Positions 1 through 12,297 of a DNA stretch of 64,000 nucleotides are shown here, piece after piece. Positions within the stretch are counted from its first letter, which is position 1. Each line of letters opens with the position of its first letter. The position numbers were made by a program, and so were the translations under genes. This DNA comes from Nitrospira sp. (GTDB lineage: Bacteria; Nitrospirota; Nitrospiria; Nitrospirales; Nitrospiraceae): assembly GCA_030653545.1 (NCBI GenBank), contig JAURZE010000026.1, positions 62,001 through 126,000 on the forward strand, given 5' to 3'. The notes under the pieces were generated by a model. It had not been told where the DNA came from and made no database searches. It worked only from the letters and a program-made list of their open reading frames with translations.

Positions 1-117
1 CACGCTTTCATAGGGTGGCGCAAGTTTGAGCTGTGCGTAGAACGTTTCCAGATGAGACCGGAACTCCTCGCGCAGGCGCTGCAGGGGATCCTGTGATGGA
101 ACAGCTGGTTCAGGCAT
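1..117 (-). CDS. Partial hypothetical protein, N-terminus only
   Basis: A reading frame on the minus strand starts with ATG (complement of 115-117) and stays open for 39 codons to the left edge. It begins MPEPAVPSQDPLQRL and continues as a charged, probably helical stretch. It is divergent from the lipoprotein gene at 209, which leaves about 90 bp for two promoters. No domain can be recognised in so short a piece. The frame could be fortuitous, but it fits the spacing and codon use of the neighbours. Confidence 0.5.
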   Translation of the reverse strand, partial: MPEPAVPSQDPLQRLREEFRSHLETFYAQLKLAPPYESV

Positions 118-208
118 AGTCGTAGTCCGGATGATACGGTATGATGGTTTCGAGTCACAAGTCCTGCGGGAAGTATTCGTGCATTGGCTATCACAGGAGG
201 TAGGTAAG

Positions 209-691
209 ATGATCAAGATGCGTTGGATGGTGTTGTCGATGGTCGGGATGTTGGCGTTGGGCGGCTGTTCTTCCCATCATCATCACGGGATGATGGAGTC
301 GGGCAAGAGCGATGCCTATTGGCAGAAGGGCCAGCAGGACATGGCGGGCTTGATCGACCGGACGGTGAAGGATCCGGCCAAGGCCACGCAGGTGAAAGCC
401 ATTGTCGGCGAGATTGTCACCGAGCTGAAGGCGGGCCGTGAGCAGGAGCGCGCCGCTCATCGCCAGCTCTATGCGCTCAGCGCCAATTATGCGGCGACGC
501 CCGAAGAGTTTACCAAGGTGATGGATGAGGCGAACAATCAGCGCATGAAGACGTCCACGAAGATTCTTGGCCTGCGGTTCAAAATGAAGGATCTGATGAC
601 GGCCGAGGAGTGGAAAGCGCTGTCCGACCAGATGCTGTCCTACAGCAGCAAGTATCAGCATGGGAGCGCCGGAGCGAAGACAGGGTATTAA
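209..691 (+). CDS. CpxP/Spy-like periplasmic lipoprotein
   Basis: The protein is 160 aa. The start at 209 is chosen because a strong AGGAGG lies at 195-200; an upstream in-frame ATG at 131 lacks one. Residues 1-20 form a lipoprotein signal ending in the lipobox LGGC, so Cys20 would be lipidated. A four-histidine run and a GMM follow directly, suggesting metal contact. The rest is helical and rich in Lys, Glu and Ala, with a region near the C-terminus (LMTAEEWKALSDQM) that resembles the helical heavy-metal-resistance or envelope-stress family around CpxP and Spy. A role as an envelope metal-stress or chaperone-like protein is inference from this resemblance. Confidence 0.7.
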   Translation: MIKMRWMVLSMVGMLALGGCSSHHHHGMMESGKSDAYWQKGQQDMAGLIDRTVKDPAKATQVKAIVGEIVTELKAGREQERAAHRQLYALSANYAATPEEFTKVMDEANNQRMKTSTKILGLRFKMKDLMTAEEWKALSDQMLSYSSKYQHGSAGAKTGY

Positions 692-760
692 GACGGGCTG
701 TGAAGCGTCTCTCGTGAAGCGTTGTTCGCACGCGAGAGGCGAACGACGAGATACGAGGAA

Positions 761-1789
761 CTAGTTTCGGACGGCAGCGGCTTTCAATGGCATGGGCGTC
801 CAGCGCGTGCCGCCGTCGGTGGAGTGATAGAGGCCGCTGCCGTTGGTGCCGACAAAGAGGTCTTGCGGATTCTTGGGGCTCATGGCCAGGGAACGGATGT
901 TCAAGGACGTGAGCCCCGCATTCATCGCCTGCCAGGTTTTGCCGCTATCCAGACTTTTCCAGACGCCGCCTGGTCCCCCGATATAAAGCTGTGTCGGTTG
1001 TGCCGGATCGATGAGCAGGCTGCTGACAAAGGGGTCTTTCATCCCTTCCCCGATCCGCTCCCATGATCGGCCCCCGTTGGCCGTGCGGAACAAGCCCTTG
1101 GTCGTTCCGGCATACACAATGTCCGGGGTGACTGGGTCAATGGCGATTGCATTCACACCCAGCGCCATGGCTCCCATCAGTTCCGTCTCGGGGATGAGTC
1201 CGGTATTGATCTTCTTCCACGAGGCCGCCGCGTCTTCCGATCGATACACGCCGCCGGTGGTGCCTGCGTAGAGGATGCGGGGATTCGTGGGGTGGATCGC
1301 GATCGACACCACGATGTGCACCTCTTTCATCCCCGCCATCCGCTCTTCCCACTCGCGCCCGCCGTCTTTCGTGGAGAAGGCGCCGACCGTCGTGGCAATG
1401 TAGATCTGCTCGTTGTTGGTGGAGTCGAACACGAATTGATTGATGAACGAGACGTGTTCCTTAAGCCCGACGTTGTGGGGGAGCCAATGTTGCCCGCCGT
1501 CCGGACTCTTGTAGACGGCGTCGGCCATGGTGCCGGCGTAGATCGTGGCCGGGAACTGCGGATCAATAGCGAGCGTCGTCACGCGGCGCGCGCTGAAACT
1601 CGGAAAGCGCTCCCAGGATGCCCCGGCATCGCGGGACTTGTAGACCGCATCGTTCGTGGCGACGTAGAGAATTTGAGTATTAGTTGGGTGTAGCGCAATC
1701 GAGACAATCGACTCGCTCTCTTTCTCGCAGCCAAGGCAGAAGAGGAGAAGAGCGAACGACGCCAATCTGAAGAGAGTGCGAATCAACAT
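761..1789 (-). CDS. Asp-box (BNR/sortilin-like) repeat lipoprotein
   Basis: The protein is about 342 aa. At least six blade-like repeats carry the Asp-box pattern, for example SRDAGASWE, SPDGGQHW, TKDGGREWE, SEDAAASW, TANGGRSWE and SLDSGKTW, each preceded by an IYAGT-like strand. This is the beta-propeller architecture of sialidase/sortilin/YCF48-like proteins. Starting at 1789, the N-terminus is a hydrophobic signal ending LLFCLGC, a lipobox, so the propeller is probably periplasmic and membrane-anchored. An alternative ATG is at 1810. The reading frame stays open further upstream, but that stretch lies in the palindromic repeat and is not considered coding. Such propellers usually bind proteins or assist assembly; the substrate here is unknown. 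Confidence 0.75.
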   Translation of the reverse strand: MLIRTLFRLASFALLLFCLGCEKESESIVSIALHPTNTQILYVATNDAVYKSRDAGASWERFPSFSARRVTTLAIDPQFPATIYAGTMADAVYKSPDGGQHWLPHNVGLKEHVSFINQFVFDSTNNEQIYIATTVGAFSTKDGGREWEERMAGMKEVHIVVSIAIHPTNPRILYAGTTGGVYRSEDAAASWKKINTGLIPETELMGAMALGVNAIAIDPVTPDIVYAGTTKGLFRTANGGRSWERIGEGMKDPFVSSLLIDPAQPTQLYIGGPGGVWKSLDSGKTWQAMNAGLTSLNIRSLAMSPKNPQDLFVGTNGSGLYHSTDGGTRWTPMPLKAAAVRN

Positions 1790-1844
1790 AACAGGGGTGG
1801 ACCTAATCATAGGCGTTGTTGTTGAGTCAAGAAGAAGGGGAGGG

Positions 1845-1938
1845 GCGAGGTGGCCGGCCAGTCTCTGTGCTCGCGGAACGCGCGCCCTCGGAAGGACCTC
1901 GTTCGACGCGCGCAGTGGAAACTCGCCGGCCACCTCGC
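1845..1938. repeat. Palindromic element type A, copy 1
   Basis: About 94 bp bounded by gcgaggtggccggcc and its near-complement gccggccacctcgc, with a loop containing tgctcgcggaacgcgcg. It is homologous to 2151-2245 and 3888-3982. Open frames run through it on both strands, as expected for a GC-rich palindrome, and are not genes. Confidence 0.85.
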
Positions 1939-1988
1939 TGAAAGTAGAGGGGAGGGGATAGCGCAGCGTAGGAAGGGGAAGGGAGGGA

Positions 1989-2106
1989 GGCGTGGCCCGG
2001 GCAATCTCCCTTGCTCGCGCCCCGCGCACACGGGATCAATCCGTATTTCTACATCAAGGGAGGTGCTCGGTGCATGCGCGCAGTGGGAGATCGCCCAAGC
2101 CACGCC
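1989..2106. repeat. Palindromic element type B, copy 1
   Basis: Left arm ggcgtggcccgggcaatctc (1989 on) pairs with the right arm ending gcccaagccacgcc at 2106. The loop shares ttgctcgcgcc with the other copies. The tail gcctctaaatgatgacgaag leads directly into type A copy 2, as it also does in the second array at 3841. Apart from elements A1, B1, A2 and B2, I see nothing in the interval 1790-2446. Confidence 0.85.
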
Positions 2107-2150
2107 TCTAAATGATGACGAAGGGAGTAATGCGAGGGGGAAGGAGGGAG

Positions 2151-2245
2151 GCGAGGCGGCCGGCCAGTCTCTGTGCTCGCGGAACGCGCGCCCTCAGAAG
2201 GGCCTCGTTCGACGCGCGCAGTTGAGACTCCACCAGCCGCCTCGC
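2151..2245. repeat. Palindromic element type A, copy 2
   Basis: Arms gcgaggcggccggcc and gccgcctcgc flank a loop that is nearly identical to copies 1 and 3. It follows type B copy 1 with the same spacer as in the 3587-3982 array. Confidence 0.85.
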
Positions 2246-2290
2246 TGAAAAGTGGAGGAAGGAGATTGCGTGGGTAGAAAGGGCGAGGGA

Positions 2291-2340
2291 GGCGTGGCCC
2301 GGGCGATCTCCCGTGCTCGCGCCTTGCGCACACGGGAAGG
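2291..2340. repeat. Palindromic element type B, half copy
   Basis: The left arm ggcgtggcccgggcgatctc and the loop start gtgctcgcgcc are present, but no matching right arm follows. It looks like a truncated copy, placed just upstream of higBA. Confidence 0.7.
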
Positions 2341-2428
2341 GGTGGCGTTCCCCTCATTCCGACTGCGCAAGGTGCGTTTGAGGGGGATGGTCATCGTAGT
2401 AACGTGCTTCTCCAGCGGCTTGTCAGGC

Positions 2429-2445
2429 GTAACGTAATAGGTTAC
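2429..2445 (+). promoter_or_regulatory. Candidate higBA operator (GTAAC-N7-GTTAC)
   Basis: An inverted repeat GTAAC/GTTAC separated by seven bases ends immediately before the first possible higB start codon. HigA-type antitoxins usually bind such palindromes over their own promoter. Assignment is by position and symmetry only. Confidence 0.35.
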
Positions 2446-2455
2446 AGTGTCCCGT

Positions 2456-2734
2456 GTGATCCGCAGCTTCAAGCATAAGGGCCTAGGCCGCTTCTTCGAG
2501 AGCGGGAGTAAATCAGGTATCCAGGCTCAACATGCAGAGCGGGTGCGCCTGATTTTGGCCCAATTGAATGCGGCCACCTCGCCACGGGATATGGCGCTGC
2601 CGGGGTTAGACCTTCATCCGCTCAAGGGAGACCGCAAAGGCACCTGGGCTGTGTCGGTAAGCGGGAACTGGCGGATCACGTTTCGGTTTGTCGGTAAGGA
2701 CGCAGAGGTTGTCGATTACGAGGATTATCACTGA
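2456..2734 (+). CDS. higB: HigB-type toxin of a type II toxin-antitoxin system
   Basis: The 92-aa protein begins MIRSFKHKGLGRFFESG and ends DAEVVDYEDYH, the typical ends of RelE/ParE-fold HigB mRNA interferases, with the internal hallmark LHPLKGDRKGTW followed by NWRITFRF. HigB cleaves mRNA at the ribosome. GTG at 2456 gives the usual family N-terminus; GTG at 2447 would add three residues. The antitoxin gene follows after 12 bp in the usual toxin-first higBA order. The gene lies between two arrays of palindromic elements, which suggests mobility. Confidence 0.9.
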   Translation: MIRSFKHKGLGRFFESGSKSGIQAQHAERVRLILAQLNAATSPRDMALPGLDLHPLKGDRKGTWAVSVSGNWRITFRFVGKDAEVVDYEDYH

Positions 2735-2746
2735 CGAGGTCACGCT

Positions 2747-3031
2747 ATGCGCATGCACAATCCCCCTCACCCAGGGACCATCATCAAGCATCTGTGTTTA
2801 GACCCGCTCAGCTTGAGTGTCACTCAGGCTGCTCAGGCCTTGGGGGTTAGCCGGAAAACCCTCTCTGCCATTTTGAACGGCCGGGCGGGGATTAGTCCTG
2901 AGATGGCGGTTCGCCTGTCGATGGCATTCGGCACTTCGTCTGAGAGCTGGCTCAATCAGCAAACCCAGTATGACCTGTGGCACGCCGAGCAGCGCCGCAA
3001 AGAACTTCGTGTCGCCAAGCTTGCGGTATAG
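2747..3031 (+). CDS. higA: HigA-type antitoxin, XRE-family HTH
   Basis: The 94-aa protein begins [20 protein letters not shown], the characteristic start of HigA antidotes. An XRE helix-turn-helix follows ([20 protein letters not shown]) and then the conserved [20 protein letters not shown]. HigA neutralises HigB and represses the operon by binding the palindrome ahead of it. It is co-transcribed with the upstream toxin gene, with a 12-bp gap. Length and motifs are complete, so this pair looks functional. Confidence 0.92.
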
Positions 3032-3094
3032 AAGTAGGGTAATTTAAGGGGCAGCCCCCTTGCTCTTGTCACCGTGAGATTGCGAGGTGGGATC

Positions 3095-3442
3095 ATGAAA
3101 ACGGTCATACTTGAAGTGCGCTCTCCTGAGGAAGGCATGGCTGAGTTCGCGCAGGCCTGGAAGTCGGGCAAGGCGCATCGGTCGGCGCGCATTGGCTTTG
3201 CGACTCCTGAACTGCTGTGGAAGGTACTGTCTGCCAAACGATGGGACCTTCTGAAGGCGCTGTGCGGCGCCGGGCCGGTTTCCATCCGCGAAGCGGCACG
3301 CCGCGTTCAACGGGATGTGAAGGCCGTTCACAGCGACGTCACGGCTCTGTTGTCCGCCGGCTTGTTGAATCGTACGAAAACCGGCGGCATCGAATTCCCC
3401 TACGAGGCCGTAAAGGTCGAGTTCCTACTCCAGGCCGCATAA
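3095..3442 (+). CDS. HTH protein of the HVO_A0114/TumA-like antitoxin type
   Basis: The protein is 115 aa, starting at ATG 3095 behind gaggtgg. A short N-terminal segment precedes a winged helix-turn-helix (VLSAKRWDLLKALCGAGP, then IREAARRVQRDVKAVHSDV and LLSAGLLNRTKTGGIEFPY). This is the layout of HVO_A0114-family DNA-binding proteins, which commonly sit beside a DUF6516 (TumE-like) toxin. No such toxin lies on either side here: upstream is higA and downstream is the repeat array. It may be an orphan antitoxin or a regulator captured by the higBA locus. Family assignment is by pattern, so the name is moderately sure and the role is inference. Confidence 0.7.
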   Translation: MKTVILEVRSPEEGMAEFAQAWKSGKAHRSARIGFATPELLWKVLSAKRWDLLKALCGAGPVSIREAARRVQRDVKAVHSDVTALLSAGLLNRTKTGGIEFPYEAVKVEFLLQAA

Positions 3443-3586
3443 CCTACCGGGCGAGCATGTAGCGACCCTTCACTCGCGGCAATGAGCCATGGCAGTGCTA
3501 AGAGCTGGCGTCGGCTCTATAGCGTTATCACTGTCCGCGCCGCATCTTCATTACTAGACAGCGTCATAACCAGAAATCTGAGTTAA

Positions 3587-3843
3587 GGCGTGGCCCGGGC
3601 GATCTCCCTTGCTCGCGCCACGCGCACGTGAGGAGGGGAGGAACGCCACCCCTGTCGCTCCTGTGCTCCCGGAGTGCGCACGCGGGATCAATCAGATGGT
3701 GAAATCAAGGGCGGTGCTCCCTCCATGGGCGCAGTAGGAACGACAAGGTGCCATTCCTTTGGGAGCGGGCAAATAATCTCGGCGCATCCCAGGGTGGGCG
3801 GGTGAAAAGGTTGCGCGCAGTGGGAGATTGCCCAGGCCACGCC
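3587..3843. repeat. Palindromic element type B, copy 3, with a nested element
   Basis: Outer arms ggcgtggcccgggcgatctc and gggagattgcccaggccac match type B copy 1. Inside lies a second palindrome with arms 3640-3662 and 3736-3757 (ggaacgccacccctgtcgct against aggaacgacaaggtgccatt), around a loop again carrying tgctcccggagtgcgcac. One related element therefore seems to have inserted into another. The stretch 3443-3586 holds nothing I recognise. Confidence 0.8.
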
Positions 3844-3887
3844 TCTAAATGATAGCAAAGGGAGTAATGCGAGGGGGAAGGAGGGCG

Positions 3888-3982
3888 GCGAGGCGGCCGG
3901 CAAGTGTCTGTGCTCGCGGAACGCGCGCCCTCAGAAGGACCTCGTTCGACGCGCGCAGATGAGACTCCGCCAGCCGCATTGC
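3888..3982. repeat. Palindromic element type A, copy 3
   Basis: Near-identical to 2151-2245, and joined to type B copy 3 by the same spacer (gcctctaaatgatagcaaag and onward). The right arm is slightly degenerate (gccgcattgc). From 3983 to 4174 the sequence is AT-richer and no gene is seen. Confidence 0.8.
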
Positions 3983-4174
3983 TTAAAGGGGAAACAAAGA
4001 GGAATAGGGCCTAACGCATTGAATGATCGTCGACTAAGGCGTATTGTTCGCGACTGGCGATGGTGTGTTTCACGGGCAGGAAATGGCCGATTCGGTCCTT
4101 GTGCGGATCAGCCTAAACATTGTTGGACGGCAACTTGCACAAGCAGAAAAGTATCACGAGGAGGAGAACCAAAG

Positions 4175-4798
4175 ATGGCTGATTTCATTTACACAACCGT
4201 CCCGGGGAAAATAAAACAGCTACTCCAGAAAATCAGAGAAGTCGGCGTGCCCCAAAAAGCTACCGTACAATGGCTTAAAGCCGTTGGCTTTAAATCTAGT
4301 AACGATGCATCGTTGCTTGGCGTCCTGAAGTTTATCGGCTTTATTGACTCAAGCAGCGTCCCCAGTTCGAAGTGGGCTCAATACAGAGGCGCAAACCACA
4401 AGGTTGTACTTGGAGAGGCACTTCGCGAGGGTTACGCGGACCTATTCGCTGTCTATCCAGACGCAAACCAACGAAGCCAAAGTGATATCGATCATGTTTT
4501 CAGCACAAGCTCATCGGGTGGAAAGCAGGTCATCGCAAAGACAGTGAGCACCTTCAAAGCACTTGCGGAACAGGCAGAATTTTCGCCAGTAAATGAACAG
4601 ACCGACCTTCGCATGCCCTCTGGTCCTCTCCATACGCCGGCGGTTCAACCCCCAGGTGGGGCCGGCCGCAGTTCGTTTGGGCCTGCATTACATATCGATG
4701 TTCAGATTCATATATCGCCAGAGGCTTCGGCGGACCAAATAGATCAAATCTTCGCAAGCATGTCTAAGCATCTTTATGGTTCAAAGAAGCCTGAATAA
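4175..4798 (+). CDS. DUF5343 domain protein, first gene of a cassette
   Basis: The protein is 207 aa. ATG 4175 follows gaggaggag at 4159-4167. Residues 1-130 match the DUF5343 family: TVPGKIKQLLQKIREVGVP, AVGFKSSNDASLLGVLKFIG, then LREGYADLFAVYPDANQRS and STFKALAEQAEFS. The C-terminal 70 residues are a linker plus a strand-rich tail, HIDVQIHISPEASADQIDQI, which in other proteins often marks an oligomerisation or partner contact. The stop codon overlaps the next start (TAATG), so the two products are probably made together. GC content is clearly lower than in the chromosome around it. The function of DUF5343 is unknown; its frequent presence in accessory DNA suggests a defence or addiction role, but that is inference. 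Confidence 0.8.
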   Translation: MADFIYTTVPGKIKQLLQKIREVGVPQKATVQWLKAVGFKSSNDASLLGVLKFIGFIDSSSVPSSKWAQYRGANHKVVLGEALREGYADLFAVYPDANQRSQSDIDHVFSTSSSGGKQVIAKTVSTFKALAEQAEFSPVNEQTDLRMPSGPLHTPAVQPPGGAGRSSFGPALHIDVQIHISPEASADQIDQIFASMSKHLYGSKKPE

Positions 4799-5310
4799 TG
4801 GCAGGCGCACGTAATATATTCTCGGTTGCGAAAGCGATCCAAGCGGATGTCGCAAAAGAGCTGGGGCCGCCAGAAGAAGGGCTGCGCTCCTCCACGCAAT
4901 GCGTGATCCCGCTGTCTGTTGTACGTGGGACACGCGGATACATCGAACGCGTAGCCAACCAAATCAATGGGGCTTACGAAAATGGTTGGTATGACGCATG
5001 CGCAGTTATGATTCGCCGCGTTCTAGAAACGCTGATTATCGAAGCCTACGAACATTACAACCTTGCAGCGAGCATAAAAAACGCGGCGGGCGACTTTTTC
5101 TATTTAAGGGATCTCATCGACAAATGCCTTCAAGAAACTGCTTGGAACCTGAGTCGGAATTGTAGACAGGCAATGCCGAAACTTAAGGACATTGGCGACA
5201 AGTCGGCACATAGTCGAAGATACAACGCTCATAGGGGCGATATCGATCCACTGTTGTTGGATATTAGATTGGTCGTGCAGGAGTTTGTTTACCTTGCAGG
5301 GCTCAAGTAA
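4798..5310 (+). CDS. DUF4145-like helical protein, second gene of the cassette
   Basis: The 170-aa protein starts one base inside the stop codon of the DUF5343 gene. It is mostly helical, with a central WYDACAVMIRRVLETLIIEA motif followed by LIDKC and a C-terminal IGDKSAHSRRYNAHRGDID. This is the pattern of DUF4145/HEPN-like proteins, in which an Arg/His motif on paired helices can act as an RNase site. No exact family is claimed. The gene ends three bases before the attC site, the usual position of the last gene in an integron cassette. Together with the upstream gene it forms a two-gene cassette of unknown function. Confidence 0.7.
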   Translation: MAGARNIFSVAKAIQADVAKELGPPEEGLRSSTQCVIPLSVVRGTRGYIERVANQINGAYENGWYDACAVMIRRVLETLIIEAYEHYNLAASIKNAAGDFFYLRDLIDKCLQETAWNLSRNCRQAMPKLKDIGDKSAHSRRYNAHRGDIDPLLLDIRLVVQEFVYLAGLK

Positions 5311-5313
5311 GCC

Positions 5314-5380
5314 GCCCAACAAGGCGCTCCAGCCGACGTCGGCGCTAACGCGCCGCCGCGTCTGAGCTTGGTCGTTAGGC
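5314..5380 (+). other. Integron attC recombination site
   Basis: R'' box GCCCAAC (5314-5320) and R' box GTTAGGC (5374-5380) are complementary apart from one base. The inner boxes CCAGCCGACG and CGTCTGAGCTTGG pair with extra-helical bases. The centre CGGCGCTAACGCGCCG forms a hairpin. Size (67 bp), box order and spacing match single-strand attC substrates of integron integrases, with cleavage expected at G/TTAGGC. It lies just after the stop codon of the preceding gene and 19 bp before the next start. No integrase gene is present in the window. Confidence 0.88.
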
Positions 5381-5399
5381 GTGACTGGTAGTGCGGCTT

Positions 5400-5789
5400 A
5401 TGCTTCACCCCAATCAATTTAAGGTCAACGATGCTTGGATTGCCTTTCGGCTCAATGATGCGGCTATTGTCACGGAACGAGACGGCGACTTTGATTGCAT
5501 AGCCTTGATGGACGCGGCGAGTTGCTGCATTCTCGGTATGGAAATGTATTCCGCCCGTGCCAAGGGTCCGTCCGCGCAAGAGTCGCGCCGCTTGCTGCAG
5601 AAGGCGCACGGTCGCGAAGGCAAATTTCCGCAAAGACTGTTCGTTGCAGAAGGACAAGTTGCAGATGCGCTGTGTCAGGAAGCAGCTCGCCTCACAATCG
5701 AGGTTGTCACTGTTCCGGAGGATGAACTGCTCGTGTTTATCGGCGAAGCACGTGACGGGTTCAAAGAACGTTTTGGGAGAACACAGTGA
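5400..5789 (+). CDS. Hypothetical cassette protein
   Basis: The 129-aa protein starts with ATG at 5400, only 19 bp after the attC cleavage side, as cassette genes usually do. A GTG at 5391 would add three residues. The N-terminal half is strand-rich (AWIAFRLNDAAIVTERDGDF, then CIALMDAASCCILGMEMY). The second half contains an alpha/beta unit (RLFVAEGQVADALCQEAARL, then VVTVPEDELLVFIGEARD). I do not recognise the family. A decayed attC-like start (gtctagccatgcgctggagc) follows the stop at 5791. Its being a cassette gene is well supported; its function is unknown. Confidence 0.72.
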   Translation: MLHPNQFKVNDAWIAFRLNDAAIVTERDGDFDCIALMDAASCCILGMEMYSARAKGPSAQESRRLLQKAHGREGKFPQRLFVAEGQVADALCQEAARLTIEVVTVPEDELLVFIGEARDGFKERFGRTQ

Positions 5790-5879
5790 CGTCTAGCCAT
5801 GCGCTGGAGCGGCGGGGGATCGGGTACAGTGCGGTTGTGAAGAAGTGTGAGGTGATCGGAAGCTCACCGAAAATCATAA

Positions 5880-5978
5880 TGTCTCCATTTCTGGCCCCGA
5901 GTGAACGATCAGTTCCGCCTCTGTTTTCGTTGGACGGACACCGGGGCGGAAGATGTTGAGATTGTAGACTATCATTGA
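5880..5978 (+). pseudogene. C-terminal remnant of a HigB toxin
   Basis: In frame with the TGA at 5976-5978, the last 24 codons read NDQFRLCFRWTDTG then AEDVEIVDYH, the conserved end of HigB. Upstream of about 5901 the frame no longer matches and no start or N-terminal half exists. A HigA gene follows after six bases, so this was once a complete higBA operon. Loss of the toxin seems to coincide with the junction to the cassette-like DNA at about 5791-5900. Confidence 0.8.
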
Positions 5979-5984
5979 GCGAGG

Positions 5985-6305
5985 ATGACGATGCGCAAAC
6001 TGAAGCCGGTCACGCCTGGCGAGCTCTTGTTGGAAGAATTCCTCAAGCCCATGGAGCTGAGCCGGTACCGGCTGGCGAAGGAAATCGGTGTTCCGGCACA
6101 GCGCATTGGCGATATTGTGGCCGGCAGCCGCTCAATTACGGCCGACACCGACTTGCGCCTGTGCCGATTCTTCGGCCTTTCGAACGGGTATTGGTTGCGA
6201 GCTCAGGCGGCCTATGACATGGAAGTCGCAGAACGAGCGTTAGGTTCGAAGCTCTCAAAAATCAAGCCATGGTCTGGATCAAAAGGGTTGAAGGTTGCAT
6301 CCTGA
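5985..6305 (+). CDS. higA: HigA-type antitoxin left without its toxin
   Basis: The 106-aa protein begins MTMRKLKPVTPGELLLEEFL and carries an XRE helix-turn-helix (LAKEIGVPAQRIGDIVAGSR), followed by ITADTDLRLCRFFGLSNGYW. These are standard HigA landmarks. An alternative ATG lies at 5991. The partner toxin is reduced to its last codons just upstream, so the antitoxin is solitary. It may persist as a regulator or as an anti-addiction protein that neutralises related HigB toxins; the sequence cannot decide this. It differs clearly from the HigA at 2747. Confidence 0.88.
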   Translation: MTMRKLKPVTPGELLLEEFLKPMELSRYRLAKEIGVPAQRIGDIVAGSRSITADTDLRLCRFFGLSNGYWLRAQAAYDMEVAERALGSKLSKIKPWSGSKGLKVAS

Positions 6306-6335
6306 TTTCAGCCGTAGCAGTTACCCTCTCGCTCC

Positions 6336-7469
6336 CTACAGCTTCTGTTTGATCCGTTCTGCATACCCCGTCAGTTCGACATAGCCTTGGCCTTTGATTG
6401 CTTGGTCATGCTCGGTTCCCTCCACCGCGACTGCTCCTTCCCAATACGTCACTTGCGTGCTGCGTGTCGTGCGCAATTCCTGATCGGCCAGGAGCGGGGT
6501 CAGGTTCAACGACAGCCCGAGTGAGGGAATAGAAACCTGCCAGCGGTGGGGATAGGTGGCCTTGCTGGTTGGACTGGTCCAGGTATCAAGCGGGGTCAGT
6601 TGGATATCGGAGGCTGAGAGATGCTGCGTGCGACCATCTGCCAAGACGAGCGTCCCGCTGGAGGCTGCGTCCGAAGTTCCGTCGGTATGACGGAGGCGAT
6701 AGACCATGAGTTCCCGATTGTCGGCGAGTTGGATGCTGAACCAATCCCACCCGGCGAGATCCGCGCCCAAGTCCGCCGAGCCGAACTCGTGGTCCATCCA
6801 ACTGGTGCCGGTGACGCGGAAAGTCTCGTTGCCGATGCTCAGAGTCCCGGACGTCGTGAGATTGGTAAAAGAATAGTAGTGTGACGCTTGCCCCGCTGCC
6901 GCTCCCTTTTTGCTGATGCCTCGCTCGCCATGGATAACCAGCGGTTTAGCGGGATCGAGCGTCAGCGCGAGCGCCACTCCATCGGCCTTGGCCTCGAGCT
7001 TCTGCTGGTCGCTGGTTCCACCGGGTGACTCTGCGCGCCAGTGATCGAGCCAGACGTGCAGATGGGTGGCATCGGCTCCGGCCTTGCCTAACCCGGCGCG
7101 GCTGATACGGTCGCGAAAGTGAAAGCGTTGGCCCGTGACGTCCGTGACGGCTAGATGGGCCAGATAGAGTTGATCCACCGACCAGCGGGAGGGGCGCGTC
7201 TCGACTTGATCGGGCGCGATGCCGCGACGAAAGAAGGTGAGCTCAAATCCGAATCGCCGGCCCTCTGCAGTCTCCAGGTGACCGGTGTAGTACCACCATT
7301 CGGTGCGGAAGGCATCGTGTGCGCCGTGATCGCGCGGGAACTCGTACCGATAGCCTTCTTGCGCCAGGCGAAAGGAGATGTCGGCAGGATCGGCCGCGGG
7401 TGCCACCGATCCGCCGGTGGCTAAGACCCATGCCAGTCCAATCACGAGACGAGCAGCTAGCGATGTCAT
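6336..7469 (-). CDS. Lipocalin-like CrtC/AttH-family protein
   Basis: About 377 aa, with a signal peptide starting MTSLAARLVIGLAWVL (ATG 7469; another ATG at 7502 adds 11 residues). The core shows the AttH/CrtC landmarks: RTEWWYYTGHL, FGFELTFFRRG, YLAHLAVTD near the N-terminus, WMDHEFGS and GWDWFSIQL in the middle, and YWEGAVAVEG near the end. This is the double beta-barrel family that includes carotenoid 1,2-hydratase. In non-phototrophs such proteins are secreted or periplasmic and their ligand is unknown. It is often found beside ABC exporters; here an ABC-2 pair lies 1 kb away but is divergently oriented. Substrate is not assigned. Confidence 0.8.
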   Translation of the reverse strand: MTSLAARLVIGLAWVLATGGSVAPAADPADISFRLAQEGYRYEFPRDHGAHDAFRTEWWYYTGHLETAEGRRFGFELTFFRRGIAPDQVETRPSRWSVDQLYLAHLAVTDVTGQRFHFRDRISRAGLGKAGADATHLHVWLDHWRAESPGGTSDQQKLEAKADGVALALTLDPAKPLVIHGERGISKKGAAAGQASHYYSFTNLTTSGTLSIGNETFRVTGTSWMDHEFGSADLGADLAGWDWFSIQLADNRELMVYRLRHTDGTSDAASSGTLVLADGRTQHLSASDIQLTPLDTWTSPTSKATYPHRWQVSIPSLGLSLNLTPLLADQELRTTRSTQVTYWEGAVAVEGTEHDQAIKGQGYVELTGYAERIKQKL

Positions 7470-7534
7470 TGCACACCAGGCCAGGATGATTATTTCGCCC
7501 ACCGGCTTATAGCACGCGTGGATTCATGTGCACA

Positions 7535-7559
7535 AATCGCCTGTATTGGTGAGGCGATT
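7535..7559. promoter_or_regulatory. Inverted repeat AATCGCCT-N9-AGGCGATT
   Basis: A perfect 8-bp inverted repeat lies between the divergent genes at 7469 and 7633. It could bind a dimeric regulator serving either gene, or be a small hairpin. No regulator gene adjoins it. Confidence 0.35.
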
Positions 7560-7597
7560 GGCAATGTGTTGCGGGGCAGTCGCGCAGGCGCTCGGCG

Positions 7598-7627
7598 TTG
7601 ACAATTTTCACAACTCTCGGCTATCGT
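7598..7627 (+). promoter_or_regulatory. Candidate leaderless promoter of the Lon-domain gene
   Basis: TTGACA at 7598 and TATCGT at 7622 are spaced by 18 bp. The -10 box ends five bases before the ATG at 7633, so the transcript would start at or next to the start codon. No ribosome binding site is present. Confidence 0.45.
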
Positions 7628-7632
7628 GAGCC

Positions 7633-8322
7633 ATGCAAATTGATCGCGAGCGCGACCAACCCACGAGCGATCCCTACGACAACGCCGTCCCGTTCATCAT
7701 CCCGGAACGTGTCCCAGTGTTTGCGTTGCCCAACGTGGTCTTTTTCCCGAAGACCTATCTGCCGCTCCATATTTTCGAGCCGCGCTATCGGCAGATGGTG
7801 GCAGACGCCGCGGCGGGCGGACAGTGCGTGGCCATGGCGCTGCTGAAGGAGGGCTGGGAGGAGGATTACTACGGTCATCCCGCGATCTATCCGATCGGCT
7901 GTGTGGGGCGTCTCCTCAGTGTGGAGTCATTGCCGGACGGTCGGTCGAATATCCTGCTCCAGGGGTTGGAGCGGTACGAAATTCAAGAAGAGTTTTTCGA
8001 GAAGCCCTATCGGGAGGCCAGGGTGGTCCTGAAGAAGGCGGCCGTCGAGCCGTCGCTGGCTCCGGAAGTGCGCCAGGCCCTGATGAAGGTGTTGGAGAAA
8101 TATCTGCGCGCGCGCGAAGATGCGGCGACGTGGGAAGGATTGTTCCGCGACGATGTGAAAGACGAAGTCCTCGTCAATACGCTCTCGACGTATTTGGACT
8201 GCACACCATTGGAAAAACAATTTCTCATAGAAGCCGAAGGTCTCCACCAGCGGGCGCGTCGTCTGAGCGACCTGATCCAGTTCATGGTGCATGATCAACA
8301 AGGCGCGAAGGGTTGGGGGTAA
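7633..8322 (+). CDS. Lon substrate-binding (LON-SBD) domain protein
   Basis: The 229-aa protein carries the LON N-terminal domain without ATPase or protease parts. Landmarks are VPVFALPNVVFFPKTYLPLH, IFEPRYRQMV and the strand-rich GCVGRLLSVESLPDGRSNIL, then a helical C-terminal half. Stand-alone LON-SBD proteins are common in bacteria and may recognise unfolded or tagged proteins. The stop codon overlaps the ATP-binding-protein start (TAATG), so it probably belongs to the ABC-2 operon. Its link to transport is unexplained. Confidence 0.88.
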   Translation: MQIDRERDQPTSDPYDNAVPFIIPERVPVFALPNVVFFPKTYLPLHIFEPRYRQMVADAAAGGQCVAMALLKEGWEEDYYGHPAIYPIGCVGRLLSVESLPDGRSNILLQGLERYEIQEEFFEKPYREARVVLKKAAVEPSLAPEVRQALMKVLEKYLRAREDAATWEGLFRDDVKDEVLVNTLSTYLDCTPLEKQFLIEAEGLHQRARRLSDLIQFMVHDQQGAKGWG

Positions 8323-9293
8323 TGGACCGGACAATTGCGATTGATGTGAATCGGCTCTGCAAGACCTACGACGGCCATAAAGCGGTCGACGATCTTTCTT
8401 TCCAGGTGTATGCGGGCGAAATCTTCGGCCTGCTGGGGCCCAACGGCGCCGGCAAAAGTACGACGCTGCGCACGCTCATTACGCTGCTGCATCCCACCTC
8501 CGGCACTGCGACGGTGCTCGGGCACGATACGGTGCGTGAGGCGGATCTGGTGCGGACGCTGTTCGGCTACGTGCCGCAAGAGCGGGCCATCGATCGATTC
8601 CTCACCGGGCGCGAGCATCTCGAATTGCTCGGGGCGCTCTACCATCTGACGAAAGAAGAAGCCACGAAGCGGATCGCCGAACTCCTCAAACTGGTCGAAC
8701 TCGAAGAGCACGCGGACCGGCCGGCCAAGACCTATTCGGGCGGCATGAAGCGGAAGCTCGATATCGCCTGCGGCCTGTTGCCGAATCCGAAGATTCTCTT
8801 TTTGGACGAGCCGACGTTGGGGTTGGATGTGCAGAGCCGGCTGCGGATCTGGGACTATATCCGGATGCTCAAGGCCCGCGGCATGACCGTGGTCATGACG
8901 ACCAATTATCTTGATGAGGCCGATCAATTGTGCGATCGCCTGGCGATCATCGATTGCGGCAAGGTCAAGACGATCGGTTCGCCGGCCGAGCTGAAAGTGG
9001 CGCTCGGCGGCGACATCGTGTCGCTCACGATCAAGGAAACCGCGCGGCTTGGCGCCTTGGCTTCCGCTCTCAAGGGGCAGCCCGCCATTCGCACGGTGAA
9101 TACGACAGCCACCGGCCTCGACATTCGCGTGGAATCCGCTGAAAAAGCCCTTCCGGCCATCTTAGAGGCGGCGAACAAACTGGAATGCCGCCTCGATTTT
9201 ATTGACTATCACCGTCCCCGGTTGGACGATGTCTTTATCGCCCATACGGGCCGTTCTTTACGAGACGCGGCGCCTGCGGAAGAACCAGCGTAG
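8322..9293 (+). CDS. ABC-2 type transporter, ATP-binding protein
   Basis: The 323-aa protein has Walker A GPNGAGKSTT, signature YSGGMKRKL, Walker B ILFLDEPTLGLD and an H-loop region where MTTNYLDEADQL replaces the usual His-containing switch; this Asn-Tyr-Leu form is common in DrrA-like ATPases. Residues 230-310 form the typical DrrA/NatA C-terminal extension. It energises the permease encoded 88 bp downstream, probably exporting a lipid, drug or polysaccharide precursor. ATG 8322 overlaps the upstream stop. A shorter alternative TTG at 8313 is unlikely to be used. Confidence 0.93.
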   Translation: MDRTIAIDVNRLCKTYDGHKAVDDLSFQVYAGEIFGLLGPNGAGKSTTLRTLITLLHPTSGTATVLGHDTVREADLVRTLFGYVPQERAIDRFLTGREHLELLGALYHLTKEEATKRIAELLKLVELEEHADRPAKTYSGGMKRKLDIACGLLPNPKILFLDEPTLGLDVQSRLRIWDYIRMLKARGMTVVMTTNYLDEADQLCDRLAIIDCGKVKTIGSPAELKVALGGDIVSLTIKETARLGALASALKGQPAIRTVNTTATGLDIRVESAEKALPAILEAANKLECRLDFIDYHRPRLDDVFIAHTGRSLRDAAPAEEPA

Positions 9294-9381
9294 CAGGGAT
9301 GCCGTTTGTAATAATGGATTGTCAGTTCATTGGAACTGAAGACGCGTTGAATAGTATTTTGAGTACTTACTAGGGAGATAC

Positions 9382-10161
9382 ATGGCGCACTATTGGCAAG
9401 AAATCGGGGCTCTGACGATGCGATGGGTTCGCCGTCTGAGCCGGGAAAAATTCAGCATGCTCTTCACGCTGGTGCAGCCGATGCTGTTCTGGCTGATCTT
9501 CTTCGGCAATCTGTTTCAGCGCGCGGCGGATGTGCAGGTGACCCAGGCGCCCAATTACATCAGCTTCCTCGCGGCCGGTGTGGTCGTGATGACGGTGCTG
9601 AATAACGGGTTGGCCGGCGGCGTCGATCTGCTGTTCGACAAGGAAAACGGATTTCTCGAACGGTTGATGTCCGCGCCGATTCACCGGAGCTCGGTCATTC
9701 TGAGCCGGTTTATCTTCGTGATGACGATCACGTCTCTGCAAGTCTTGGTGATCCTCGGTATCGCGTTTCTCTTCGGCGTGCATCCGGCCACGGGATTGCT
9801 CGGCGTGGGCATGATCCTCTTGATCGGCATGTTGTTCGGTGTGGGGCTGACAGCCATCTCGATGGCGATGGCCTTTTCGGTGAAGAGTCACGGCGACTTT
9901 TTCTCGGTCCTCGGATTCCTCTCGCTCCCGATGATTTTCCTCAGCTCGGCGCTGGTGCCGCTGACGGCCATGCCGACCTGGATGAGTGTTCTGGCGCAAT
10001 TCAACCCCATGACCTGGGCGATCGACGCCGTGCGGCCTCTGATTCTCACCAATTGGAGCGATGCCCTGCCGCATGTGGGCATGGCGATCGTCGTCATGGT
10101 CATTTTTGATGCGCTGTGCTTGTATGGCGGAGCCAAAGCGTTCCGCCGGGCGATGGGCTAG
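9382..10161 (+). CDS. ABC-2 type transporter, permease
   Basis: The 259-aa protein has six predicted membrane segments, starting after MRWVRRLSREKFSMLFTLVQ. It shows the ABC-2 signature region with AAGVVVMTVLNNG and RLMSAPIHRSSVILSR, and SLPMIFLSSALVPLTAMP near the end. It pairs with the ATP-binding protein upstream to form an exporter; the substrate cannot be read from the sequence. The 88-bp gap is longer than elsewhere in the operon, and gggag at 9372-9376 precedes the ATG. The next gene starts directly after the stop. Confidence 0.92.
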   Translation: MAHYWQEIGALTMRWVRRLSREKFSMLFTLVQPMLFWLIFFGNLFQRAADVQVTQAPNYISFLAAGVVVMTVLNNGLAGGVDLLFDKENGFLERLMSAPIHRSSVILSRFIFVMTITSLQVLVILGIAFLFGVHPATGLLGVGMILLIGMLFGVGLTAISMAMAFSVKSHGDFFSVLGFLSLPMIFLSSALVPLTAMPTWMSVLAQFNPMTWAIDAVRPLILTNWSDALPHVGMAIVVMVIFDALCLYGGAKAFRRAMG

Positions 10162-10188
10162 TTGGCTGCGACCCGCGTGAGTACCCCC

Positions 10189-11049
10189 ATGGTGATTCCA
10201 GAGAGTCAAATACGCGCCCTCATCCGGCTGTTGTCCGATGAGGATGCACGCATTGTCGAGACCATCAGCGATAAGCTGATCGATATCGGTCCGTCGGCGG
10301 TACCGCTGCTTCAGGAAGCCGAGATCGAGCAGCCGGAGATGGCGGATCGCATCGCGACGATTCTGGAAGAGATTCGTTGGGGTAAGCTCGAGGACGAAAT
10401 GCGGGCCATGGCCGCGGGCCCTGACGCGACCATGAGTCTGGAACAGGGGGCGTTTCTCATTGCCCGGTACACGTACCCCCTGCTCGATACGGCGGAGTAC
10501 GGGCGGCTGCTCGATACGATGGCGCAGGAAGTCCGGGAACGGATCGGCCCGCGCGCATCCGGTGAAGAAACGGTCAATGCGTTGAACCGCTACGTGTTCA
10601 CCGAGCAGGGCTTCAAGGGCAACACCAAGAACTATTACGAAGTCGAGAACAGCTATCTGAATCGCGTGATCGATCGGCGGGTAGGGATTCCCATCAGCTT
10701 GTCGGTGGTCTATCTCCTCATCGGGCAGCGCCTGGGTCTGCCGCTGCATGGCATCGGGATGCCGGGCCATTTTTTGGTGAAGTACGAGTCGGACCGCTAC
10801 AAGATTTTCATCGATTGCTTCAACGGCGGAGCGCTGTTGACGGAAAAGAATTGCGCCCGGTTCTTAACGGAAGCCGGGTATGGATTCGATGACAAGTATC
10901 TGCAGCACAGCCAGGTTCGCGGCATCCTCTCCCGCATGGTGAAGAATCTTCTGGCGATCTATTCCAAGATGGATGAGCCGGTGAAGACGGCGCGGTTTAC
11001 CACGCTGATCGAAATTCTCGGCGGGGAGCCCCGCGAAGAGGGCTTGTAG
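10189..11049 (+). CDS. SirB1-family (transglutaminase-like/TPR) protein
   Basis: About 286 aa. The N-terminal third is helical and HEAT-like (LIRLLSDEDARIVETISDKL). The central region shows the SirB1/Transglut_core2 landmarks: LNRYVFTEQGFKGNTKNYYE, NSYLNRVIDRRVGIPISLSV, and LPLHGIGMPGHFLVKY with the conserved His. The family resembles transglutaminase folds but its reaction is not established. The start is uncertain: TTG 10162 directly after the permease stop, GTG 10177 and ATG 10189 are all possible. It is probably the last gene of the ABC operon; the next gene is convergent. Confidence 0.87.
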   Translation: MVIPESQIRALIRLLSDEDARIVETISDKLIDIGPSAVPLLQEAEIEQPEMADRIATILEEIRWGKLEDEMRAMAAGPDATMSLEQGAFLIARYTYPLLDTAEYGRLLDTMAQEVRERIGPRASGEETVNALNRYVFTEQGFKGNTKNYYEVENSYLNRVIDRRVGIPISLSVVYLLIGQRLGLPLHGIGMPGHFLVKYESDRYKIFIDCFNGGALLTEKNCARFLTEAGYGFDDKYLQHSQVRGILSRMVKNLLAIYSKMDEPVKTARFTTLIEILGGEPREEGL

Positions 11050-11083
11050 TCCGGCTGGTTTCTTTTTCCGCAGCCTGCTCCCC

Positions 11084-11839
11084 TCAGAGTCGAATCGTCA
11101 GCAGATCTTTCCCCTTCATCACGGTCCCGCGAAAATTCTCCGCTGCCTGAGCTTTCACGTCGGCGCGATCTGCGGGCGGATAGAAATGCGATAGCACCAG
11201 TCGATCCACGCCGGCCTCTTCCGCCACCTGGCCGCATTCCCCCGCATGCATGTGCACCGGCCCCGGCTTCGTCGCCGGGAACGAACAGTCCAGCACGGCC
11301 ACGTCGGCTTCACGGCACAGGCGTACCAAGCTGTCGCAGTATTGCGCATCGCCTGAGTAGACCAGCGTCTTGTTCTTGTGCTCGATCCGATATCCCACGC
11401 TATTCAGATCCGGGACATGCACGACCCGACGGGGAGTAATGAGCGTCTCACCGATCCAAAAGGCTCGGTCCGTCACTTCTTTCAGATGTACTCGGAACGG
11501 CGGATCGGAAAAGCTGGGGAAGGTGGCCATGATGCTGCGGAACAGCGTTTTCGCCCCGCGCGGGCCGATCAGGGTGAGGTCGGGGCGCCACCCGCCGCCA
11601 TGCTTGGTATAGATCACCGCGTCAAAGTAGAAGGTGATGAAATCAGAAAAGTGGTCGGCGTGAAAATGAGAGAAGAGGATATGCGTGATGCGATGGCGAT
11701 CGATGCCGGTTTTCAGGAGATTGGACAGTGTCCTGGGGCCGAAGTCCAACAGCATGGTCTGGTCGGTACGGACGAGATAGCCGGCGGCGGCCCTGGTCGG
11801 GTGAACATTCGTGCCAGAGCCGAGAATGGTCAGCCGCAT
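11084..11839 (-). CDS. MBL-fold metallohydrolase, RNase Z-like
   Basis: The 251-aa protein begins MRLTILGSGTNVHPTRAAAG and has the metal motif SHFHADHFSD, then VYSGDAQYCD, an acidic ligand region DCSFP and a late HxH-type histidine near LVLSHFYPPADRAD. This is the beta-lactamase fold close to ribonuclease Z and related phosphodiesterases. The long exosite arm typical of true tRNase Z is not evident, so a tRNA-processing role is uncertain. It lies two bases from the MarR gene, so the two are probably co-transcribed, the regulator first. Confidence 0.88.
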   Translation of the reverse strand: MRLTILGSGTNVHPTRAAAGYLVRTDQTMLLDFGPRTLSNLLKTGIDRHRITHILFSHFHADHFSDFITFYFDAVIYTKHGGGWRPDLTLIGPRGAKTLFRSIMATFPSFSDPPFRVHLKEVTDRAFWIGETLITPRRVVHVPDLNSVGYRIEHKNKTLVYSGDAQYCDSLVRLCREADVAVLDCSFPATKPGPVHMHAGECGQVAEEAGVDRLVLSHFYPPADRADVKAQAAENFRGTVMKGKDLLTIRL

Positions 11840-11841
11840 GT

Positions 11842-12297
11842 CTAGGAAGTTCCTCGCTTGAAGCTGTCACGAAGGCGGAGGAGCAGCCGCCGCGCGTCGT
11901 CGACCTCTTTCGGGCTCAATGCCCGTTCGAAAAACGGTTTCAGAAACGCGATATGGGCTGCGTAAGTTTTGCGGAAGACGCCGTCGCCCTTCTCGGTGAG
12001 TTGAATCCTGATTTGACGGCGATCGCTGTCGACGGACTCACGGCGAATCAATCCCTTGGCCGCCAGCCGGTCGAGCACGCCGGTGAGTGTCCCCTTGGTC
12101 ACAAGCGTTCTGGCCGATAACTCAGAGCAGGTCATGCCATCCGTATCTCCCAACGTCGCAATGACGTCGAACTGGGACGGCGTCAGCTTCAACGATCGGA
12201 TATGGCGGTTATCGGCGAGCCAAAACGCCTGGTAGGCTTCTACCAACGGTCTGACCAGCTTGAGATGGGGGTCGTCTTTCAGATCGGGAAGTTCCAT
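11842..12297 (-). CDS. MarR-family transcriptional regulator
   Basis: The 151-aa protein starts MELPDLKDD at 12297; an ATG at 12324 would add nine residues. The winged helix is clear: LTPSQFDVIATLGDTDG, CSELSARTLVTKGTLTGVLD, RLAAKGLIRRESVDSDRRQI and RIQLTEKGDGVF. MarR dimers usually repress nearby genes and respond to small phenolic or oxidising ligands. The downstream MBL-fold gene is a likely target, as is the divergent HEAT membrane gene, whose promoter overlaps the upstream region. The minus-strand frame stays open further upstream only because it is antisense to that gene. Confidence 0.92.
   Translation of the reverse strand: MELPDLKDDPHLKLVRPLVEAYQAFWLADNRHIRSLKLTPSQFDVIATLGDTDGMTCSELSARTLVTKGTLTGVLDRLAAKGLIRRESVDSDRRQIRIQLTEKGDGVFRKTYAAHIAFLKPFFERALSPKEVDDARRLLLRLRDSFKRGTS

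Follow-up and report, generated by a model that had tools for sequence, protein, structure and literature searches.

The window analyzed here, i.e., the whole stretch of 64,000 nucleotides, contains between two conserved flanks, a BNR-like gene (761–2029) and CrtC (6339–7502), a short row of genes and sites, of which 4175–5810 had been annotated initially as integron cassette DNA. The features of this locus are as follows.

4004–4128, + strand: attI region, which ends in the core site GTTGGAC (4122–4128); R3 profile and pairwise identity
4019–4047, + strand: possible cassette promoter, TTGAAT-17 nt-TATTGT; read directly
4175–4798, + strand: DUF5343 gene (cassette 1, gene 1); Pfam E 1.1e-32, PADLOC PDC-M34A E 2.6e-38
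4798–5310, + strand: DUF4145-like gene (cassette 1, gene 2); Pfam E 8.8e-6, 26.1 bits, cut-off 23.1
5314–5380, + strand: complete attC of cassette 1; R1 and R2 covariance models, fold
5391–5789, + strand: DUF6930 gene (cassette 2); Pfam E 2.3e-6, 28.3 bits, cut-off 27
5791–5814, + strand: truncated left arm (R″/L″) of the attC of cassette 2; left-arm profile
5851–5978, + strand: remains of the 3′ end of a higB-like toxin gene, decayed and spread over two frames; tblastn
5985–6305, + strand: higA-like antitoxin gene; Pfam HTH_3

The Rfam search at the gathering threshold gave zero matches within the window and, therefore, the covariance models for attC were built de novo. A regular-expression attC finder, which recovered few of the sites listed later by R1, seeded the first model only. 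The R1 model consisted of 15 attCs (6 from Nitrospirota intI loci, 5 from class 1 plasmids, and 4 from Gemmatirosa) and the R2 model of 61 R1 matches from 21 intI loci and plasmid stretches, including two second-strand readings; the window was excluded from both. R1 scored the 67-nt site at 5314–5380 with 42.8 bits (E 6e-8 in the 64-kb window with the filters off, E 3.7e-6 genome-wide), and the second-best match in the window, the reverse strand of the site itself (9.9 bits) aside, reached 9.6 bits. R2 gave 46.4 bits (E 3.2e-8 in the 64-kb window). The core boxes R″ GCCCAAC (5314–5320) and R′ GTTAGGC (5374–5380) were read directly from the sequence. When folded as DNA, the bottom strand of the site formed a single long hairpin containing unpaired bases (−21.9 kcal/mol, z −3.29), and none of the 200 shuffled sequences folded as well. 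The site thus has the R″/R′ core, the L boxes, and the bottom-strand hairpin of an attC; several of the pairs that the model aligns are non-standard. These results, obtained with models trained without the window, confirmed the attC proposed by the initial annotation; in our own models, which are not those of IntegronFinder, its score did not fall below the chance level. The predicted cross-over is located between 5374 and 5375 (G|TT). The distance of 19 nt proposed initially between attC and the next gene is correct if this gene starts at ATG 5400 (+) and becomes 10 nt if it starts at GTG 5391.

The left side of cassette 1 was examined with the sequence profile R3, composed of six intI-linked attIs from other genomes. 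The neighboring intI is full-length for three of them, interrupted by an internal stop for one, and partial for two. In the search of the window's own genome, R3 matched 4007–4126 with E 1.1e-20, and the pairwise comparison of this attI with the six intI-linked sites showed 81–100 identical bases of the 120–125 aligned (66–80%). The cross-over is predicted between 4122 and 4123. Among 40 attI copies, the information was mostly above 1.4 bits over the 25 bases that precede the cross-over and did not exceed 0.51 bits from 5 bases past GTT onward. Sites of this type lie between intI and the first cassette in L048, L053, and L061, three of the 20 intI loci whose 3′ flanks were printed; most of the other flanks have other sequence. 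The module also adjoins the full-length intI genes of L098 and L107. It contains internal inverted repeats, TTATGCSGATC, noticed by eye. The candidate promoter at 4019–4047 may drive the first cassette; TTGAA is kept in five and TATTGT in three of the six intI-linked attIs. The consensus promoter scan of 3900–6330 listed none, its limit being 9 matches of 12 and the candidate having 8 by our own count.

In cassette 1, the DUF5343 start at 4175 is the choice of the initial annotation, and the open frame extends back to 3959. The stop codon of the DUF4145-like gene is located 3 nt ahead of R″. By its PADLOC match, PDC-M34A, the DUF5343 product would be a candidate antiphage protein; the DUF4145 and DUF6930 proteins had no match in PADLOC. 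In the 3 kb examined around DUF4145 relatives outside the window's own genome, one of the three (L158) had an attC-like match, 540 nt further on, and none of the three had an attI match. Two of the nine DUF5343 relatives (L162 and L165) had an attI nearby, and an attC match was found near none of the nine.

The nucleotide homology of the DUF6930 gene to two other genomes (G272 and G036) spans 5373–5795, that is, from the attC cross-over to R″. In two genomes, this gene was found in other surroundings in the same kind of array: in G055 (L078), an attI (E 1.8e-14), a cassette, and an attC (E 0.005) precede it, and in G139 (L076), an attI of 37 nt only (E 1.1e-4), a cassette, and an attC (E 8.7e-9). 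Among the other close relatives, L074 has a 5′ attC match of E 0.68 only, and L075 and L077 have no attC match directly before the gene; no attC match was found 3′ of the gene in any of the five (L074–L078). According to the initial annotation, homologues occurring with no attC in the same place would speak against cassette DNA. Such homologues do exist, namely the DUF6930 genes of L075 and L077 as well as two of the three DUF4145 and all nine DUF5343 relatives, and the DUF6930 genes of L076 and L078 have the site.

The left-arm profile ranked position 5791, 1 nt past the DUF6930 stop codon, third of the 127,952 window positions, the first being the attC at 5314–5380. As neither R1 nor R2 gave a covariance match over the 5791 site, the right half of this second attC is missing. 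The decayed attC start noted there initially is a genuine-looking left arm, and it breaks off before the higB remnant. The remnant was recognized by tblastn at 5901–5975 (56% over 25 aa, E 5e-8, with in-frame stops), and a weak further piece was seen at 5851–5895 (E 0.5–0.7). The higA-like gene behind it may be what is left of a third cassette; at another locus (L088), a HigB/HigA-like pair, identified by eye, lies between two attC matches. Upstream of the attI, the window contains HigB-like toxin and HTH (HigA-like) genes at 2447–3031, both open. Partial direct and inverted copies of a GC-rich repeat family (1834–2337 and 3564–4001) surround this pair, and the same family is present at the same locus in G325 and G108.

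The initial annotation reported no integrase gene, and no intact intI was found in the genome. The search of the whole genome with an IntI profile gave no match above the curated cut-off, and tblastn over positions 1–12000 of the window found no intI. Of the parts of a complete integron, the attI was found by homology (R3) and the attC by R1 and R2, without an intI. The best profile match in the genome, on contig C16, was a C-terminal relic that covers 67 positions; there, this intI fragment, an attI, and the second strong attC of the genome are located within ~1.1 kb. Weaker profile matches (at most 88 bits) on contigs C15, C14, C33, C25, and C9 are of a kind also seen in 14 of 14 control genomes; the C15 protein looks XerC/D-like by eye. 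Since only an intI fragment was found, the sites of this genome are probably inert now unless an IntI enters from outside.

Besides the attI of the window, R3 detected further attI-like copies in the same genome, nine in all, the weakest with E 3.5e-6. R2 gave weaker attC-like matches at two of these loci, L193 (E 6e-4) and L195 (E 0.003). The attI-like sites of L195 (contig C26 of this genome, ~163.9–164.9 kb), L109, and L043 follow the end of an ORF reading ...KDYLQKRGLI, which by eye is likely a riboflavin synthase; in the window's own genome, this end is duplicated, with a HigBA-like pair between both ends. Tandem attI–gene–attI units with sites 0.85–0.93 kb apart were seen in L084/L195, L095, and L112. 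An attC-like match between the tandem attIs was listed in L112 and not in L095 or L195.

The chromosomal place of the window locus was then compared between relatives. The BNR-like and CrtC genes, measured between their aligned ends, are separated by 168 nt in G165 and by 4.6 kb in the window. In G325, the same place is occupied by the same attI (R3 E 3.3e-27), an unrelated first gene, and an attC match (E 4e-5). In G193, which belongs to another genus, the locus has the same order, with the attI, a ydhR-like gene, and an attC match of 42.7 bits. The position of the attI is therefore common to three genomes, and their first genes are all different. No intI trace was found at E 1e-25 in G325 (87% complete) or in G193 (99% complete). 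In G108, neither an attI nor an attC match was found at the BNR–CrtC locus.

In the survey of the family, the attI core, with up to 3 mismatches allowed, was found at 367 sites distributed over 114 of 175 genomes, with a maximum of nine in one genome, and the reversed control pattern in none of the 175. An intI at E 1e-25 or better was present in 40 genomes, and above the curated cut-off in 18. The attC matches at E 0.001 were found in at least 87 of the 175, the strict filters losing weak sites. At E 1e-25, 88 attI-bearing genomes, which hold 279 of the 367 sites, gave no trace of intI; many of the 88 are drafts, which makes single absences weak, and the complete chromosome of N. defluvii (G055, FP929003.1), with three attI-like sites, is among them. 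The exact attI core was also found in a contig of Chlorobium phaeovibrioides BrKhr17 and in MAGs named Chlorobiaceae, Hydrogenedentota, Armatimonadetes, Sumerlaeota, and Proteobacteria (L204, L206, L212, L242, L247, and L248, including BrKhr17). This attI type may cross phyla, misbinning of the MAGs being the alternative.

The orientation of the attC-like matches toward the attI was determined in three sets of loci, which overlap in part, as some stretches come from the same genomes. Set 1 comprised 30 loci, one per genome, 6 of them with some IntI homology, and nearly equal amounts of sequence upstream and downstream of the attI (43.5 kb each). With attC-like matches accepted up to E 1, all 17 had the strand of the attI and lay downstream of one; a single match was, in addition, upstream of a second attI. 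In set 2, which includes the window, all 23 matches were on the attI strand and 21 of them downstream (five further matches in loci without an attI were not counted); 16 of its 34 attI sites had no co-oriented attC-like match within 2.5 kb. Set 3 consisted of 55 stretches with the exact attI core, of which 13 showed IntI homology at E 1e-5. Its matches at E <0.01, counted without L256 (G193) and with one second-strand reading dropped, were on the attI strand in 52 of 52 cases and downstream in 44.

The sequences on both sides of 59 attI sites were also compared. Eleven pairs had at least 378 nt of co-linear upstream sequence in common, a cut that was set after the list was seen; some of these pairs have a common member, so that they represent about nine places, and the intI-linked L098/L107 pair was excluded. 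Nothing detectable was in common in the 1 kb downstream in 10 of the 11, the remaining pair, L099/L106, having 370 nt. Of eight more pairs under 378 nt, one, the two tandem sites of L195, was alike downstream.

We conclude that the stretch is very probably the core left over from a chromosomal integron, with no integrase of its own. This core would consist of the attI with the possible promoter, cassette 1 (4123–5374), its attC, cassette 2, and the left arm of the attC of cassette 2. A deletion would have cut the latter attC and probably also taken the start of a higBA cassette. As the homology ends at G|TT on either side, junctions made by IntI at 4123 and 5374 would be the most economical account of the sequence; the enzyme may have acted in trans from a different locus, or it may have come from an intI that was later lost. 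The attI of the window belongs to an attI family scattered over Nitrospiraceae chromosomes, and most members of this family are in genomes that yielded no intI. That searches revealed no intI at the shared locus of three genomes whose cassettes differ points to an enzyme located elsewhere or lost. Our best guess, which is not a proof, is therefore that the attI is an orphan and that such an integrase exchanged its cassettes. It is possible that different cassettes came to stand at one attI by differential loss from a longer ancestral array.

A plainer history, in which a complete integron at this place lost its intI by deletion and nothing acted in trans, is possible, although we consider it rather doubtful. 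It agrees with contig C16, on which a piece of intI stands next to attI-like sites and an attC, and with the IntI homology (tblastn E 0.01) in 6 of the 30 set 1 loci, which ranges from full length to fragments of 18–29 residues. In the other 24 loci, however, IntI homology was not found in the upstream sequence covered (at most 1.5 kb, shorter in some), and G325 and G193, both intI-less at E 1e-25, have the same attI position with different first genes. If a single ancestral loss of intI is assumed, these differing first genes would require later exchange by an enzyme located elsewhere. The attI-like module could also be another kind of mobile element, such as a mobile promoter or a small element with inverted repeats, standing beside intI loci by chance. 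Its internal inverted repeats, several copies per genome, and varied 5′ ends, as well as its absence from most of the 20 printed intI 3′ flanks, would fit, but we regard this as improbable: the module occupies the place between intI and the first cassette, or adjoins intI, at the five loci named above, its conservation ends just past the core site, and the attC-like matches keep its strand in all three sets. Moreover, one N. defluvii copy had zero blastn matches among plasmid and phage records at E 1e-3.

Less probable still is the insertion of a single cassette by IntI into an attG-like site outside any integron. Such insertion is reported (cited in PMC12444791, in the portion considered here), and it would leave one attC far from intI, so that the placing of a cassette away from the integrase gene is a feature in common. 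The left junction here, however, is in an attI homologue of ~120 nt and not in non-integron sequence, and the same attI stands at the same place in other species, by which this reading is largely refuted. The view of the attC as a chance palindrome, based on the ease with which GC-rich DNA makes hairpins, has practically nothing left in its favor and is already refuted by E values of 3e-8 to 6e-8, the fold z of −3.29, and the location of the site between two genes and at the end of a cassette-sized homology block.

The surviving-core reading can be compared with systems already described, as far as the available parts of the respective papers go. The initial annotation regarded the locus as a CALIN. 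The cassette DNA, the complete and the broken attC, and the missing intI stand, but the array is headed by an attI. By the default of IntegronFinder 2.0, a CALIN has at least two attC sites (PMC9024848); the locus resembles it in having cassettes and an attC without an intI nearby and differs in having one complete attC plus a left arm, with an attI at the array head. The statement that such elements are rarely noted in this kind of bacterium holds for the publications found, where two CALINs, both of Ca. Nitrospira inopinata, are reported in the relevant part of PMC9024848, but not for the genomes in our survey. Nitrospirota are listed among the phyla with attCs like the archaeal ones (PMC9668308, the part considered), and the part of PMC8649781 considered has no bearing on attI. 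In Xanthomonas, arrays stay in place after intI loss, as here, and CALINs are found at conserved positions outside the intI locus (PMC12444791, same portion). These distant CALINs are described there by attC only, whereas several attIs per genome are present here and one of them has been retained at the same place in different genera, with different cassettes. The Delta-attI-type gene cassettes (PMC12901181, the portion considered) likewise have attI sequence outside the single classical position; however, they carry resistance genes and belong to mobile integrons, and here chromosomal attI modules head separate arrays. Among the matches listed in the open-access literature, in the parts seen of them, we found no description of scattered or integrase-less attI sites.

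The cargo of the attI sites was scanned with PADLOC for 28 of the 33 first ORFs after an attI, likeliest first, the omitted five being doubtful or short. Strong matches (E <1e-10) were obtained for 5 of the 28, namely PDC-M34A (the window), PycTIR, GajA, AbiGi, and PDC-S31, and one more match was weak. Relatives of the Pycsar TIR effector, AbiGi, and Gabija GajA are the first genes after attI in loci including L175 and L184. Pfam at E 0.001 assigned no family to 11 of the 20 first ORFs scanned.

In the usual picture, an integron has one attI beside one intI, and the genome studied here has nine attI-like sites. We tentatively propose, at somewhat less than an even chance, that Nitrospiraceae possess a distributed integron, in which scattered attI-promoter sockets with exchangeable cassettes would be served in trans by one integrase present at times; some of the sockets would stand at fixed places across species or genera, and some cassettes would carry defense genes. 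Arrays with a single attC would by default be missed by finders that require an intI or two attCs. The claim can be checked by anyone on the complete N. defluvii chromosome (G055) with its three sites. If the sites were served in trans, gene capture would be spread over many sites of the chromosome, of which some are fixed, and the relatives of Gabija GajA, Pycsar TIR, and AbiGi among the 28 first genes scanned would tie integrons to phage defense.
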